From contig NZ_BBJR01000024.1 of assembly GCF_000739875.1 (NCBI RefSeq), forward strand, positions 62,001-126,000: DNA of 64,000 nucleotides. The letters are read 5' to 3'. Source of the stretch: Comamonas aquatica NBRC 14918. GTDB taxonomy: Bacteria > Pseudomonadota > Gammaproteobacteria > Burkholderiales > Burkholderiaceae_C. The translations under genes were made by a program, and so were the position numbers. Under the pieces are notes generated by a model that had not been told where the DNA came from, searched no databases, and saw nothing but the letters and a program-made list of their open reading frames with translations. Below, piece by piece: positions 1 through 47,200 of the stretch. Position 1 is the stretch's first letter, and each line of letters begins with the position of its first letter.

Positions 1-1892
1 ACTACGAAGCCATCACGCTGGACCGCCGGCGGGCCACGCTGCTGCGCCAGCAGATCCTGGCGCACATCGTCGCGCACGACCTGCACCAGGACCTGGGCAT
101 GGCGGCGCCGCGCTCCGAGGCCGAGGAGCAGGAGCTGCTGAACAAGACCGATGCCTACCTGTGCGAACTCAAGGAAAGCCAGATCCGCGACGGTCTGCAC
201 ATCTTTGGCCAGTCGCCCACCGGCCGGCTGGAGCGCGATACCTTGCTGGCCCTGGCACGCCACCCCGTGGGCCACGGCCAGGGCGCCAACAACAGCCTGA
301 TCCGGGCGCTGGCGCAGGACCTGCTGCCGGGCTGCGACTTCGACCCGCTGGACGCCGCCTGGGAGCAGCCCTGGAGCGGCCCGTTCCCCGAGCTGCTGCG
401 GCAGGTCGACCCCCAGCCCTGGCGCCACACCGGCGATACGCGCGAGCGGCTGGAACTGCTGGCACTGCAAATTCTGGAGCATGATGCGCTTGACAGCATT
501 GCGCTGGAGGCCAATTTTGTGCATGCCCGCCAGGTGCTGCAACGCGTGCAGCACGACCTGCGGCCACGCCTGCAGGACTGCGGCCCGCAGGAAATCCTGC
601 AGCTCAGTCGTGGCCTGCAGGGGCGCTTCGTGCCCGCCGGGCCCAGCGGTGCGCCAACGCGCGGTCGCCCCGACGTGCTGCCCACCGGGCGCAACTTCTT
701 TTCCATCGACACCCGGGCCGTGCCCACGCCCACCAGCTGGACCCTGGGCCTCAAGTCGGCCCAGCTGCTGGTCGAGCGCTACACCCAGGAGCATGGCGAC
801 TACCCCCGCTCGCTGGGCCTGTCGGTCTGGGGCACGTCCACCATGCGCACCGGCGGCGACGACATCGCCCAGGCCTTCGCCTTGCTGGGCGTGCGCCCCA
901 AGTGGGACGACGGCAGCTGGCGCGTGAGCGACTTCGAGGTGCTGCCCATGTCCATCCTGGGCCGCCCCCGGGTGGACGTGACCTTGCGGGTGTCCGGCTT
1001 CTTCCGCGACGCGTTCACGAACGTGATCCGCCTGTTCGATGCCGCCGTGCAGAAGGTCGCCAGCCTGGACGACGAGGATGCCTTCACCAACCCCATCCGC
1101 GCGCGCGTGCTGCAGGAAGCGGCCGAGCTGCAGGCCCAGGGCCTGAGCCACGAGGCGGCCCGCCACCAGGCCGGGTTGCGCGTGTTCGGCGCCAAGCCCG
1201 GCAGCTATGGCGCCGGCCTGCAGGGGCTGATCGACGGCCGCAACTGGGACAGCGACGAGGACCTGGCCACTGCCTACCGCAACTGGGGCGCCTATGCCTA
1301 TGGCCAGCAGGACGACGGCACGGCGGTGCCCGAGACCTTTGTGCGCCGCCTCAGCGAGATCCAGCTGGTGGTGCAGAACCAGGACAACCGCGAGCACGAC
1401 CTGCTGGACTCGGACGATTACTACCAGTTCCAGGGGGGCATGGCGGCCGCCGTGCGCCATTACAGCGGCCAGCAGCCGGACCTGTACTTTGGCGATCACA
1501 GCAACCCGCAGTCGCCGCGCATGCGCACGCTGCAGGAGGAAATCAGCCGCGTGGTGCGCGCGCGCGTGACCAATCCCAAGTGGATCGAGGGCATCAAGCG
1601 CCACGGCTACAAGGGCGCGTTCGAGGTCGCGGCCACGGTGGACTATCTGTTCGCCTTCGACGCCACGGCGCGCGTGGTGCGCGACGACCAGTACGCCCGC
1701 GTGACCGACGCCTTCGTGGCCGATGCCGCCACGCGCGATTTCCTGCAGCAGCACAATCCGGCGGCCTTCCACGGCATGTGCGAGCGCCTGCTGGAGGCCA
1801 TCGGCCGCGGCCTGTGGCAACAACCCGGTGAGCACCAGCAACTGCTGGAGCAGCACTTGCTGGCCACCGAGCAACTTTTGGAGAGCCGATGA
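1..1892 (+). CDS. cobN: Cobaltochelatase subunit CobN, 3' part (5' end outside window)
   Basis: This is the large, metal- and corrin-binding subunit of the aerobic cobaltochelatase, which inserts cobalt into hydrogenobyrinate a,c-diamide during cobalamin synthesis in the cytoplasm. The frame is already open at base 3 and runs about 630 codons to TGA, so only the C-terminal half of a normally 1100-1400-residue protein is present. The ATG at 99 is internal, not the start. The sequence has CobN/BchH-family C-terminal character, including GKPGSYG-like AKPGSYGAGLQ and the LSVWGTSTMRTGGDDIAQA stretch. The stop overlaps the ATG of the next gene (ATGA-type coupling), so it is translated together with the chlI/chlD gene downstream. 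BchH is the alternative family, but no chlorophyll genes are visible. Confidence 0.93.
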   Translation, partial: YEAITLDRRRATLLRQQILAHIVAHDLHQDLGMAAPRSEAEEQELLNKTDAYLCELKESQIRDGLHIFGQSPTGRLERDTLLALARHPVGHGQGANNSLIRALAQDLLPGCDFDPLDAAWEQPWSGPFPELLRQVDPQPWRHTGDTRERLELLALQILEHDALDSIALEANFVHARQVLQRVQHDLRPRLQDCGPQEILQLSRGLQGRFVPAGPSGAPTRGRPDVLPTGRNFFSIDTRAVPTPTSWTLGLKSAQLLVERYTQEHGDYPRSLGLSVWGTSTMRTGGDDIAQAFALLGVRPKWDDGSWRVSDFEVLPMSILGRPRVDVTLRVSGFFRDAFTNVIRLFDAAVQKVASLDDEDAFTNPIRARVLQEAAELQAQGLSHEAARHQAGLRVFGAKPGSYGAGLQGLIDGRNWDSDEDLATAYRNWGAYAYGQQDDGTAVPETFVRRLSEIQLVVQNQDNREHDLLDSDDYYQFQGGMAAAVRHYSGQQPDLYFGDHSNPQSPRMRTLQEEISRVVRARVTNPKWIEGIKRHGYKGAFEVAATVDYLFAFDATARVVRDDQYARVTDAFVADAATRDFLQQHNPAAFHGMCERLLEAIGRGLWQQPGEHQQLLEQHLLATEQLLESR

Positions 1893-2992
1893 TGTCGATA
1901 GCCACCCCGCCTGCCACCGCGCCCGTGGGATTCCCCTTCACGGCCATCGAGGGCCAGCCCCTGCTGCAACGGGCCCTGCTGCTGGCGGCCGTGGACCCCT
2001 TGTTGGGCGGGGTACTGGTTGAGGGGCCACGCGGCACGGCCAAGTCCACCAGCGCCCGCGCGCTGGCCGCGCTGCTGCCGGCCGGCCGCTTTGTGAATCT
2101 GCCGCTGGGCGCCACCGAGGAGCAGCTGGTCGGTTCGCTGGACCTGGAGGCGGCCCTGCAGCGCAGCGCCGTGCAGTTCCGCCCCGGCCTGCTGGCGCGC
2201 GCCCATGGCGGGATCCTGTATGTGGACGAGGTCAATCTGCTGGCCGATGGCCTGGTCGACCTGCTGCTGGACGTGAGCGCCAGCGGCATCAACCGCGTGG
2301 AGCGCGACGGTGTGTCGCACCAGCACGAGGCGCGCATCACCCTGATCGGCACCATGAACCCCGAGGAGGGACAGTTGCGCCCGCAGCTGCTGGACCGTTT
2401 CGGCCTGTTTGTGCGGCTGGAGAACGTGCCCAACGCCCAGGTGCGCAAGGCCATCGTGCGCACCCGCATGGCCTTCGATGCCGATCCGCAGGCCTTTGCC
2501 AGCCGCCATGCCGCCGCACAGACGGCCCTGGCGCTGCGTGTGGCGCAGGCCCGCGACCGGCAGGCCACCGTGGAGTGGCCCGAGGCCGTGCACGACGAGG
2601 TGGCCCAGCGCTGCCAGGACGCCGGTGTGGAAGGCGTGCGGGCCGATCTGGTGATGCTGCGTGCCGCGCGCGCCCATGCCGCGCTGGAGGCCCGGGCGCA
2701 GGTGACGCCGGCCGATGTGCAGGCCGTGGCCGAACTGGCGCTGGCCCACCGCCGCACCCAGGGGCAGCCGCGAACGTCTTCCAGCCCACCGGCCGAGCCA
2801 CCGCAGCAGCAGCCTGAGGCCCCGCCTGCGCAGGCGGCCACGAACCCACCACCCACGGACCCGGCGCCCGCACCGGACGCCGGCCCTGCGGACCAGAACC
2901 CGGCTGATGATTGGGGCGCCATGCCGGCTTCGCAGGCCGTGCCCCTGCAGGCGGTGAAAGCACTGAGGCCTTTTCAGCCAAAAAAAGCCTGA
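1889..2992 (+). CDS. ChlI-type AAA+ chelatase subunit (zero-frame product of a frameshifted chlD gene)
   Basis: A 367-residue AAA+ ATPase of the magnesium/cobalt chelatase small-subunit class that would power metal insertion by CobN. Walker A is GPRGTAKST (about residues 46-54) and Walker B is ILYVDEVNLL (Asp113-Glu114); the helical ATPase lid follows. From about residue 290 the chain becomes a Pro/Ala-rich linker, which is typical of ChlD rather than of free ChlI. The frame stops at TGA 2990-2992, directly after seven A residues. A -1 slip on that A-run joins this frame to the VWA frame and gives a protein of about 590 residues (1889-3660), a normal ChlD length. The start ATG overlaps the cobN stop by 4 bases. 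Which product dominates cannot be told from sequence. Confidence 0.9.
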   Translation: MMSIATPPATAPVGFPFTAIEGQPLLQRALLLAAVDPLLGGVLVEGPRGTAKSTSARALAALLPAGRFVNLPLGATEEQLVGSLDLEAALQRSAVQFRPGLLARAHGGILYVDEVNLLADGLVDLLLDVSASGINRVERDGVSHQHEARITLIGTMNPEEGQLRPQLLDRFGLFVRLENVPNAQVRKAIVRTRMAFDADPQAFASRHAAAQTALALRVAQARDRQATVEWPEAVHDEVAQRCQDAGVEGVRADLVMLRAARAHAALEARAQVTPADVQAVAELALAHRRTQGQPRTSSSPPAEPPQQQPEAPPAQAATNPPPTDPAPAPDAGPADQNPADDWGAMPASQAVPLQAVKALRPFQPKKA

Positions 2993-3660
2993 CGCGCTCT
3001 GCCCCCACGGGCCAGGCCGGACAGGCCGTGGCAGGGCGCGACAGCAACACGGCACGCAAGGGCCGCAGCCTGGGGCCGGCCAGCCGTCAGCTGGACTGGG
3101 CCGCCACGCTGGCGGCCAAGGGCCCGGGTGCGCTGCAACCGCAGCATCTGCACTTTCGCCGCCAGCCACAGGGGCGCAAGACCTTGCACCTGGTGCTGCT
3201 GGACCAGTCCGCGTCCATGCTGCGCGGGCAGAAGCTGGCCTGGGCCAAGGGCTGCTTGCTGGCCCTGTCCACGCTGTTCTACCGTCGCCGCGACGCGATG
3301 GCCGTCCTCGGTTTTTCGGGTGAGCAGGCGCAGTGGCTGCAAAAGCCCAGCAAGGCCGGGCTGTTCAACGAGCACTGGATCGCTCCGTTGCGCGGTGGCG
3401 GGGCCACGCCCATCCAGTCGGCCATCGATGCCGTGCAGGACGCTGTGCGCCGCGCCCCGGCTGGCACGCAGGTGGCCGTATGGCTGCTGACCGACGGCCG
3501 GTTCGACCCGTTGCCGCAACGCCCCGGGGGGGTCGACGACTGCTACATCATCGACTTTGAAGACGGGGCCGTGGCCCTGGGTCGCTGCCACCGCCTGGCC
3601 GAGATGTGGGGTGGCACCTGCGTGCCTGCCGCGCAGTGGGGCGCACCGACTGCGGGCTAA
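2911..3660 (+). CDS. VWA-domain half of ChlD-type cobaltochelatase subunit (reached by -1 frameshift)
   Basis: A von Willebrand A domain with the metal-ion-dependent adhesion site DQSAS (Asp98 in this frame) and TDGRFDP later in the fold, as in the C-terminus of ChlD/BchD/CobT, which organises the AAA+ ring against CobN. The first in-frame ATG (2911) lies 80 bases inside the preceding gene and has no convincing ribosome-binding site. Residues before about 2986 are the out-of-frame shadow of the ChlI linker. It is therefore more likely made as the tail of a frameshifted 1889-3660 protein than as a separate 249-residue protein. Independent initiation at 2911 cannot be excluded. No separate chlI or cobS gene is visible in the window. 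Confidence 0.85.
   Translation: MGRHAGFAGRAPAGGESTEAFSAKKSLTRSAPTGQAGQAVAGRDSNTARKGRSLGPASRQLDWAATLAAKGPGALQPQHLHFRRQPQGRKTLHLVLLDQSASMLRGQKLAWAKGCLLALSTLFYRRRDAMAVLGFSGEQAQWLQKPSKAGLFNEHWIAPLRGGGATPIQSAIDAVQDAVRRAPAGTQVAVWLLTDGRFDPLPQRPGGVDDCYIIDFEDGAVALGRCHRLAEMWGGTCVPAAQWGAPTAG
2980..3040 (+). promoter_or_regulatory. -1 programmed ribosomal frameshift signal in chlD
   Basis: The slippery heptamer A AAA AAA occupies 2980-2986, read in zero frame as CCA AAA AAA GCC TGA. Six bases later a stem-loop begins. Bases 2993-3003 pair with 3030-3040 (11 pairs, one G-U), and after a 3-base bulge 3007-3010 pair with 3026-3029. Heptamer, short spacer and strong hairpin are the three classical elements of -1 frameshifting, and the zero-frame stop follows at once. 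The -1 frame is open to 3660 and encodes the expected ChlD C-terminus. The arrangement is read directly from the sequence. Function is inferred, though chlD frameshifting beside cobN has been described as a class. Confidence 0.82.
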
Positions 3661-37837: not shown

Positions 37838-37933
37838 TGGCGGAAAGCAGCAGGAGTCGAACCTACCCAGGAGTGGCTAACACCCCTCACCGGGTTTGAA
37901 GCCCGGCCGCACCACCGGGCACGATTGCCTTCC
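37838..37933 (-). tRNA. selC: tRNA-Sec (anticodon UCA)
   Basis: On the minus strand, a 96-base tRNA with the long form unique to tRNA-Sec: an 8-base acceptor stem (GGAAGGCA pairing with TGCTTTCC, one G-U), anticodon loop CTTCAAA with UCA, a long extra arm (GAGGGGTGTTAGCCACTCC), T loop GGTTCGACTCC and encoded G-CCA end. It closely parallels E. coli selC. It delivers selenocysteine at UGA with SelB. The spacing of 66 bases from the selB stop means it may be processed from the sel transcript or have its own promoter. Confidence 0.96.
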
Positions 37934-44263: not shown

Positions 44264-47200
44264 TTATGCCTTCTCAACCTTCACGAGGAAGGTCTTGGAT
44301 TCAGGGGTCATGCTGTTGCCGTCACCGACCGACGCAGTCAAGTTGTTCGCCAGGTAGCCCTTGCGACCTGTCGAGGCAAAGCCCCAGTGGATCGGAATGC
44401 CCACGTGGTGGATGGTCTTGCCGTCGATCTGCATGGGTTTGATGCGCTTGGTCACCACTGCCGCAGCCTTGACGAAACCACGCTTGGACGACACCTTGAC
44501 CTTCTGGCCGGTTTCGATGCCCAGCTCCTTGGCCAGCGCTTCACCAATTTCCACAAACTGTTCGGGCTGAACGATATTGTTCAGCTGAACGTGCTTGGTC
44601 CAATAGTGGAAGTGCTCGGTCAGGCGGTAGGTCGTGCCCACGTGTGGGTAGTCCTTGGGATCACCCGCAGTGCCCTTGGTGGATTCCAGGATACGCGCTG
44701 CAGGGTTGATGACCGCCAGCGGGTTCTTGGGATACATGGGGTTGTAGCCCAGCGGGTTGTCGAACGCCTCGTAGTGCGTGGGGAACGGACCTTCGTTCAT
44801 GCCCTTGCGTGCGAACAAGCGCGCCACACCCTCGGGATTCATGATGAAGGGGTTGATCACCTCGGGATCCAGGCCTACGGCCACGTCCGGCACGTCCGCG
44901 CCGCCCCACTGCTTGCCATTCCACTTGATCAGCACGCGCTTGGGGTTGAACGGATTGCCTTGGCGGTCGCACGATGCGCGGTTGTACAGCACACGGCGGT
45001 TGGCCGGCCAGGCCCAGGCCCAGTTCAGCGTGTTGCCGATCCCGGTAGGGTCGCTGTTGTCGCGGCGCGCCATCTGGTTGCCCGAAGACGTCCAGCTGCC
45101 TGCCCAGATCCAGCAACCACCCAGGGTAGTGCCGTCATCGCGCATTTCGCCAAAGCCCGCCAGCTGCTCGCCCGCCTTGCGGATGAGCTTGGTGGGGTCC
45201 TTGGGGTCGTACAGATCGACCAGGGCGCGACCGTTGTATTCCTTGGCAATTTCCTCGGAAGTGGGGTGGTCGGCGTGCGAGTACGGCCAGTAGAGGTTGA
45301 CGATGGGGTCAGGGAACTTGCCGCCGTCCTTCTCGTACAACTTCTTCAAGCGCAGGTGCAGGCCGGACATGATCGCGATGTCAGTCTTGGCTTCGCCCGG
45401 TGCATCGGCGGCCTTCCAGTGCCACTGCAACACGCGCGAGGAGCTCACGACCGCACCGTCTTCTTCGGCGAAGCAGGTCGTGGGCAGGCGGAACACCTCG
45501 GTCTGGATGGAGGCGGAGTCCACATCGTTGAATTCACCGTGGTTCTTCCAGAACTCGGAAGTCTCGGTGACCAGCGGATCCATCACGACCAGGAACTTCA
45601 GCTTCTTCAAGCCTTCGCGGACATTGTTGGAGTTGGCCAGCGCGGCCAGGGGGTTGAAGCCCTGCGCGATGTAGCCATTCACCTTGCCCTGCACCATCAT
45701 GTCGGTGACCTGCAGCATGTCGTACTGCTTGTCCAACTTGGGTAGGTAATCGAATGCCCAGTTGTTTTCCGCAGTCGCCGCAGGACCCCACCATGCCTTC
45801 ATCAGGCTGACGTGGAACTTGGGTGTGTTGGACCAGTAGTTCATCTGGCCGGGACGCAGCAGCTTGGGCGTGCGTGCGGCGATGTACTGTTGGTAGTCTT
45901 GCTCGCGCTCGTTGGGCAGCGTCAGGTAACCCGGCAACGAAGCGGACAAGATACCCAAGTCGGTCAAGCCCTGGATGTTGGAGTGACCGCGCAAGGCGTT
46001 CATGCCACCACCTGCAACGCCGATGTTGCCGCACAGCAGCTGGATCATGGCGCCGGTACGCAGCATTTGTGCGCCCGTGGTGTGCTGGGTCCAGCCCAGT
46101 GCGTACATGATGGTCGCCACGCGGCCTGCCACTGCGGTCGAGGCAAACTGCTCGGCCACGTGCAGGAACTTGGCCTGGGGGGTGCCGCAGATGCTTTCTA
46201 CCTTCTCGGGGGTATAGCCCGCGTAATGGCGCTTAAGCCACTGGTAGACGCAACGGGGGTGCTGCAACGTGGGGTCGGTCTTCACGAAGCCGTCTTCGCC
46301 CATCTCGTAGTCCCACGACGATTTGTCGTAAGTACGGGTCTCGGGGTTGTAGCCGGAGAAGATGCCTTCGTCGAACGCAAAGTCTTCGCGCACGATGTAT
46401 GTGAAGTCGGTGTAGTTCTTCACATATTCGTGGTGAATTTTGTCGTTGGTCAGTAGGTAATTGATGATGCCGCCCAGGAACACGATGTCCGAGCCCGAAC
46501 GGATAGGGGCATAGAAATCGGCTACGGAAGCAGATCGGTTGAAACGCGGATCGACCACCATGAAGTGCGCACCGTTGTGCTCCTTCGCTTCGGTCACCCA
46601 TTTGAAACCACAGGGGTGCGCTTCCGCAGCGTTACCGCCCATGATCAGGATCACATCAGCATTCTTGATGTCGACCCAGTGATTTGTCATGGCTCCACGG
46701 CCAAACGTCGGGGCAAGACCTGCCACCGTCGGGCCGTGTCAGACACGTGCTTGGTTATCGAGCGCCAGCAGGCCCCAGGAACGGGCAACCTTGTGGGTGA
46801 CGTAACCGGCTTCGTTGCTAGAGGCCGAAGCAGCCAGCATGCCGGTGGTGAGCCAACGGTTGACCGTTTGACCCTTTTCATTCTTCTCGACGAAGTTGGC
46901 GTCGCGGTCTTCCTTCAGAAGCTTGGCGATACGGTCCAGGGCTTCGTCCCACGACAGGCGCTTCCACTCGGTCGAGCCGGGAGCACGGTATTCGGGGTAC
47001 TTGAGGCGGTTGGGGCTGTGAACGAAGTCCAGCAGCGAGGCGCCCTTGGGGCACAGCGTGCCGCGATTCACGGGGTGATCGGGATCACCTTCAACGTGCA
47101 TCACCGACATCTTGGCGTTCTTGACGCCGTCGCTGTAGGAGTACATCAGGATGCCGCAGCCCACCGAACAGTACGTGCATGTCTGCCGTGTGACGGTGGT

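Follow-up and report, generated by a model that had tools for sequence, protein, structure and literature searches.

How does a chlI/D gene whose ChlI-type frame stops halfway, directly downstream from cobN, provide the ATPase partner of a cobaltochelatase? The question is raised by a stretch of 64,000 nucleotides (hereafter the window, to which plain coordinates refer) from Comamonas aquatica NBRC 14918 (contig NZ_BBJR01000024.1; G000:C80:62001-126000 in our numbering), a genome of 3.73 Mb in 103 contigs with a completeness of 99.99. The gene is very probably an fs-chlD, in which one mRNA would yield, through −1 ribosomal slippage, an AAA+ protein of 367 residues and an AAA-VWA protein of 590 residues. 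Comparison with related sequences gives good support to a −1 frameshift cassette at this locus. A paper by Antonov of 2020 is said to be among those on the fs-chlD programmed frameshift family.

Reading frames and slip site

The 3′ part of cobN, which codes for the large subunit of cobaltochelatase, occupies positions 3–1892 of the plus strand (TIGR02257, 829 bits, above cut-off; PF02514, 734.9 bits). The complete gene (G000:C80:60512-63832, 1356.9 bits) is the single CobN of the source genome, and its stop (1892) overlaps the ChlI start in ATGATG. The zero frame (1889–2992, plus strand) runs from the ATG at 1889 to the TGA at 2990–2992 and codes for the predicted short product, 367 residues with a ChlI-type AAA+ domain and a Pro/Ala-rich linker (matches to TIGR02442, TIGR02030, AAA_lid_2, and AAA_5). 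It scores 388.6 bits with TIGR02442 (putative cobaltochelatase) and 304.2 bits with TIGR02030 (ChlI), both under the whole-protein cut-offs, and its best solved structure is ChlI (PDB 6l8d, 3.9e-74). The −1 frame is open from 2911 to 3660 and matches VWA_2 (5.4e-07), ChlD models, and the C-terminal part of TIGR02442, with the 60 kDa subunit of Mg-chelatase as best solved structure (PDB 2x31, 1.3e-07). Read from the AGC (Ser) at 2986 to 3660 (plus strand), it would add 224 residues with the VWA domain, for a predicted long product of 590 residues. By eye, the residues of the metal ion-dependent adhesion site (DQSAS plus T and D) are present in the extension, and the Walker motifs are intact in the AAA+ domain common to both products. 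The closest named relatives by ChlI/D protein are Comamonas avium (75%), Acidovorax sp. CCYZU-2555 (71%), and Comamonas sp. JUb58 (66%).

The last codons of the ChlI frame are CCA AAA AAA GCC TGA, which places a run of seven A (A7) in phase. The slippery heptamer A_AAA_AAA (2980–2986, plus strand), made of two Lys codons and conserved in relatives, is followed by a six-base spacer, GCCTGA (2987–2992, plus strand), that contains the zero-frame stop. Next comes a predicted stimulatory RNA hairpin (2993–3040, plus strand; RNAfold, with covariation in relatives), formed of 11 pairs, a bulge, four pairs, and a few inner pairs. The segment 2987–3045 folds with −33.5 kcal/mol (z −2.28), an energy equaled by one of 200 dinucleotide shuffles. 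By itself A7 is not rare in the window: dinucleotide shuffles predict 0.87 matches, and nine are present (two of them within a single A8 run). It is the position, phase, and conservation of the cassette, and not A7 alone, that set it beyond chance. The marks of an fs-chlD gene are found together: an in-phase X_XXY_YYZ shift site before the zero-frame stop, a VWA domain encoded in −1 and alignable with fused homologues, and a predicted RNA structure downstream.

A sequence-only reading of this stretch had proposed the same heptamer, six-base spacer, and hairpin at the end of the ChlI frame, with the VWA domain in −1 and cobN directly upstream, and all these elements are recovered at the positions it gave. 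That reading also singled out the linker ahead of the slip site; such an arrangement is ordinary, since the linker precedes the slip column in all eight shifted and all four fused proteins aligned.

In the mechanism that we propose, ribosomes staying in frame would decode the heptamer and the stop that follows and release the 367-residue AAA+ (ChlI/CobS-like) subunit. Some ribosomes would be held up by the hairpin, which starts six bases further on, and in most relatives by pairing of the anti-Shine–Dalgarno (anti-SD) sequence just upstream as well. Both tRNA-Lys would then slip back by one base on A_AAA_AAA, and reading would continue into the VWA domain to give a 590-residue ChlD/CobT-like subunit. 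Together, the short and long products would serve CobN as its ATPase partner when cobalt is inserted during B12 synthesis. Slippage at this site, and its rate, are what we infer from the cassette.

Conservation of the cassette

In the genus, the gene occurs in 39 of 53 genomes, with one ChlI match in each at E ≤ 1e-20. The loci compared number 42 (39 from the carrier genomes and three named ones, so that some genomes appear twice; 38 are distinct over 90 bases). The in-phase A7, the zero-frame stop just after it, and the VWA domain in −1 are present in all 42. Counted from the first A of the run, the stop falls at 10 bases in 27 loci and at 31 bases, inside the hairpin region, in the other 15. 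This second placement marks a subclass (loci L108-L122, L135, and L137) where ribosomes could finish the short protein only by opening the hairpin. Outside the slip site, Lys codons in the 38 distinct genus genes are mainly AAG (285, vs. 93 AAA), whereas the slip pair is AAA AAA in every one.

A sample of 150 genomes of the family gave matches at E ≤ 1e-40 in 39, of which 15 are strong (E ≤ 1.7e-93), the source genome among them. Outside the genus, the 14 strong loci, from 13 genera, all carry the same cassette, with an in-phase run of at least seven A (one A8), the stop 10 or 31 bases further on, and the VWA domain in −1. Among the 24 weaker matches, the 15 loci read are separate ChlI-type genes without cassette, and the remaining nine had no locus. 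In the order, four of 250 genomes pass E ≤ 1e-75: the source genome, a second genus member, and two further genomes, whose new loci (L156 and L157) are both shifted. Misses are possible in these searches, which scored the 16 best first-look candidates per genome in the family and the best nine in the order.

Related genomes with one uninterrupted frame had been put forward as the observation that would speak against frameshifting; none is seen among the 42 genus or the 14 family loci of this type, where heptamer, phase, and −1 VWA domain are kept throughout. Poly-A runs are error-prone and fused single-frame homologues do exist (28 of 80 loci, see below), but the loss or gain of an A in a single-frame chlD, by sequencing or assembly error or in a decaying pseudogene, has a negligible probability and is refuted by the comparative data, with an identical break at the same heptamer in 42/42 genus and 14/14 strong family loci and with both frames and the RNA hairpin conserved.

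Selection at the RNA level

The signal of the cassette is selected as RNA. Over 52 distinct sequences, the hairpin was chosen by script as the best one starting 2–9 bases past the run, so that its presence is partly by construction; the outermost pair starts at position 2 in 21 sequences, at position 6 in 18, and elsewhere in 13. The folding energy of the 68 bases that follow the run, compared with dinucleotide shuffles, has a mean z of −2.43 (below −1 in 46/52 and below −2 in 31/52), in sequences that are related and, thus, not independent. Covariation was followed in ten ungapped Comamonas rows (nine distinct), a subset chosen for equal hairpin length. There, 93.5% of cells are paired, 12 cells are changed on both sides, and four pairs are changed on both sides. 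The covariation score is 0.400 vs. 0.213 after shuffling (reached by none of 500 shuffles), and slid partners do far worse.

Upstream of the A-run, pairing with the anti-SD sequence, in a duplex scan, dips to about −5.9 kcal/mol at 9–17 bases before the run (mean of 52), vs. values of roughly 0 to −3 over the rest of the 75 bases that precede it. This SD-like element is within the best 10% of the windows of its own gene in 32/52 sequences and within the best 25% in 42/52; with one sequence per genus in 14 genera, the combined p is 1.2e-05. In the C. aquatica copy, it corresponds to GAGG (2965–2968, plus strand), which lies 11 bases ahead of the heptamer, pairs with −5.6 kcal/mol, and ranks at 0.166 among the windows of the gene. 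In the protein alignment, the element lies in differing peptides (e.g., LEALAAKK or AGAPFAKK), which speaks for selection at the RNA level; over the clade its presence would make the cassette dnaX-like, while in this copy it is moderate.

Other routes to the VWA protein

The VWA protein might be the product of a separate gene, translated without frameshifting by translational coupling or from an internal start at the ChlI stop. The two frames overlap, and in this copy an in-frame GTG occurs 48 bases downstream from where the A-run starts. However, a candidate start (ATG, GTG, or TTG) is absent from the first 40 codons past the slip in 13 of the 38 distinct genus sequences and is found at scattered positions in the others, whereas the heptamer is constant. 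Fused homologues align full length over the join, weakly beside it. A downstream gene with its own start is rejected, since internal start codons are not conserved, and this route is highly improbable.

Transcriptional slippage on the A-run, in place of ribosomal slippage, could also produce a long form. RNA polymerase can slip on A-runs, and members of the Chloroflexota have runs of eight or nine A. The efficiency published in Antonov 2013 (PMC3711429) climbs with run length. On the other hand, the run here has seven A, with just one A8 among the 14 family loci, and the spacer–hairpin geometry, the covariation, and the SD-like element are stimulators of ribosomes. Transcriptional slippage is a very unlikely source of the long form.

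Operon and cobalamin context

Upstream of the window (region L154 = G000:C80:46001-62100), a cobalamin riboswitch (L154:9259-9474, plus strand; RF00174, 102.7 bits) is followed by cobO (from L154 9601), genes for a periplasmic binding protein, a FecCD/BtuC-like permease, and an ATP-binding cassette ATPase, then cobW (TIGR02475, 507.7 bits) and cobN. Judging from order and strand, the whole set from the riboswitch through cobO, the transporter, cobW, and cobN to chlI/D would form one transcript, with chlI/D last. A second, divergent cobalamin riboswitch (L154:8425-8650, minus strand; RF00174, 92.9 bits) precedes another periplasmic binding protein (L154 7283-8395; Peripla_BP_2, with a siderophore-type binding protein as best NCBIfam match, below cut-off).

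The source genome has one CbiC/CobH (242.4 bits). In the genus, CbiC/CobH occurs in 35/39 carriers of chlI/D and in 0/14 noncarriers (Fisher p 1.3e-09, with species that are not independent). Taken with cobN, cobW, and the riboswitch, this co-occurrence links the gene to B12 synthesis, although CbiC/CobH does not separate the aerobic from the anaerobic route. The adjacency of cobN is that of an aerobic-type cobaltochelatase, with CobN served by ChlI/D in replacement of CobS/T; for the making of the corrin ring and control by B12, the genome has CbiC/CobH and RF00174, respectively. CobN-family genes occur without chlI/D and CbiC in five genus genomes (G008, G011, G013, G037, and G039; about 960–1025 bits in four and in two pieces in G013), and a second CobN of the same class in G019, G026, G035, and G050.

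Is the short form needed?

In the source genome, profile searches find no second ChlI (extras only to 22.7 bits) and no CobS (best 22.8 bits), in answer to the check for chlI or cobS genes proposed with the sequence-only reading. A separate small-subunit gene was not found there, and genus carriers have the single ChlI match already mentioned. The suggestion that one mRNA yields both subunits is supported as a prediction of products, but not as proof that both are needed, in view of fused homologues without a second ChlI (as in Halomonas).

The fused homologues come from 80 loci (L008-L084 and L155-L157) classed by simple tblastn rules: 28 are fused, 13 are split, and 39 have no usable class (30 with no VWA found, six off the contig end, and three with VWA far away). 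Two loci classed as without VWA (L024 and L060) have frames long enough to be fused. Our prediction of a separate chlI in fused genomes failed. In Halomonas JB37 (one contig of 3.8 Mb), cobO, a CobB/CbiA-type gene, and cobW come after the fused gene, whose frame lacks X_XXY_YYZ heptamers with A or T in the middle triplet. In Marinomonas gallaica, the genes after the fused one are a CobB/CbiA-type gene and cbiD, the latter of the anaerobic route, and no cobN occurs within 20 kb on either side. In both genomes, the ChlI model at E ≤ 1e-6 finds the fused gene alone. In Halomonas, a single AAA-VWA product may suffice, or else its partner was not found, CobS not having been searched in fused genomes. 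The Marinomonas gene may have another role, its function being less certain because of the cbiD neighbor and the absence of cobN within 20 kb.

Several observations weigh against the proposal of an fs-chlD gene with two products. With longer flanks, the z-score of the fold weakens (−1.22 and +0.06); the hairpin energy of the single copy is, thus, not decisive, and we rely on the family set. Two of the five covariation measures are ordinary (reached by 78 and 77 of 500 shuffles). The SD-like element is moderate in this copy, and its rank is worse than 0.25 in 10/52 sequences, including the sister L086, which is without the element. Four of the 39 genus carriers have no CbiC, and 16 of the 39 hold a separate CobS-like protein of about 500 bits, below the family cut-off. 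Of the fused genomes searched, 19/24 have one ChlI match only at E ≤ 1e-20 (24 of the 28 fused loci; genome completeness not given). And the fused gene of Halomonas lies about 5 kb from cobN (55% identical), in the same cluster. Since that gene clusters with cobN and no other ChlI is found, the short form is perhaps dispensable: it may be unnecessary or regulatory, with two products not obligatory.

The CobS-like AAA+ proteins occur in 18/53 genus genomes (492–507 bits vs. a CobS cut-off of 558.55). Since two genomes (G047 and G033) have such a protein without any cobN or chlI/D, another function is suggested for them.

It is possible, though less likely than not, that the frameshift is real but serves to set a subunit ratio or to regulate the enzyme (in response to B12 or cobalt status, for instance), one AAA-VWA polypeptide being enough, and not an essential supply of small subunit. 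The fused Halomonas gene, in its cluster of cobO, cobB, cobW, and cobN, and the single ChlI match in most fused genomes point that way. Mg-chelatase, on the contrary, operates with separate I and D subunits; no fused form is present among the Burkholderiales loci of this type examined, and the Marinomonas gene, with its different neighbors, may do something else. A regulatory role is also raised in Atkins 2016 (PMC5009743), which discusses chlD stems. In the fs-chlD proposal, the need for the short form is what we infer. The shifted Comamonas gene and the fused Halomonas gene, both with cobN, offer a testable contrast on the need for a separate small AAA+ subunit.

Relation to known systems

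The gene class is already published, and the Comamonas locus adds a well-supported example. Antonov 2013 (PMC3711429) describes 23 fs-chlD genes from six genera, among them Burkholderia and Delftia, and shifting in E. coli of 63, 40, and 10% for cassettes with 11, 9, and 7 A; the shifting of the seven-A member counts in favor of frameshifting here. The likeness to that family extends to the overlapping ChlI and VWA frames, the −1 direction, the A_AAA_AAA or A_AAA_AAR site, the downstream stem, and the B12 context. As differences, Comamonas is not named in the available text of PMC3711429 or PMC5009743, and neither an SD-like element nor a subclass with the stop in the hairpin was found described for chlD in the parts available. 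A literature search in a limited library found no paper linking Comamonas, chelatase, and programmed frameshift. With respect to the sequence-only reading, the SD-like element, the riboswitch operon with its link to CbiC/CobH, and the fused unshifted homologues are new; the locus is, besides, shown not to be an error, and the conservation of the cassette is documented over one genus and the 13 other family genera where this gene type was found.

In E. coli dnaX (DNA polymerase III tau/gamma), the shift yields the short product, whereas here the shift would yield the long one, and the site is A7G instead of A6G. The A-run site and the downstream hairpin of dnaX (PMC3711429) recur here; its upstream SD-like sequence has a counterpart in most relatives and a moderate one in this copy. 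The fused ChlID proteins (TIGR02442-like, of Halomonas and Marinomonas) have the same AAA-linker-VWA order, with 50–52% identity to the C. aquatica gene before and 28–29% after the slip column, but in a single frame.

Evolution of the frameshift

In a tree of 82 AAA domains (with root unknown, several long branches, and the published Pseudomonas fs-chlD absent), the 30 shifted genes of Burkholderiales form one clade (100/97). Its sister comprises four fused genes (Halomonas, Marinomonas, Hahellaceae, and Spongiihabitans; joint branch 100/93). The eight shifted genes of Chloroflexota form a separate clade (99/98) amid fused genes, and forcing the two shifted groups together is rejected (approximately unbiased test, p 0.0075). 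A repeated gain of the frameshift is favored but not shown, because of the unknown root, the long branches, and the missing Pseudomonas. The result bears on the published view of fs-chlD as ancestral and spread by transfer; Kuznetsov 2022 (PMC9227772) takes fs-chlD to be ancient, with transfer to account for the B12-only species. Tentatively, and with considerable doubt, the Burkholderiales frameshift would be no relic of an ancient fs-chlD. It would have arisen in a fused single-product lineage, separately from Chloroflexota, when its linker acquired a three-part cassette (SD, A7, and hairpin), turning a working one-polypeptide ATPase into a two-subunit one with a ratio set by the ribosome.

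In Chloroflexota (L022, L026, L032, L037, L046, L054, L077, and L082), the break in chlI/D falls near a run of eight or nine A, and the VWA domain is in −1. In L016 (Corynebacterium sp. 13CS0277) and L028 (Anaerolineales), the ChlI and VWA frames are offset by +1; L016 has no A-run at the break, and L028 has an A5 39 bases before it. These two could be separate genes or cases of +1 shifting or decay.

Other RNA elements in the window

Further along the window, a selenocysteine tRNA (37842–37933, minus strand; RF01852) and a SECIS_3 element (46686–46744, minus strand; RF01989) are signs of a selenoprotein system.

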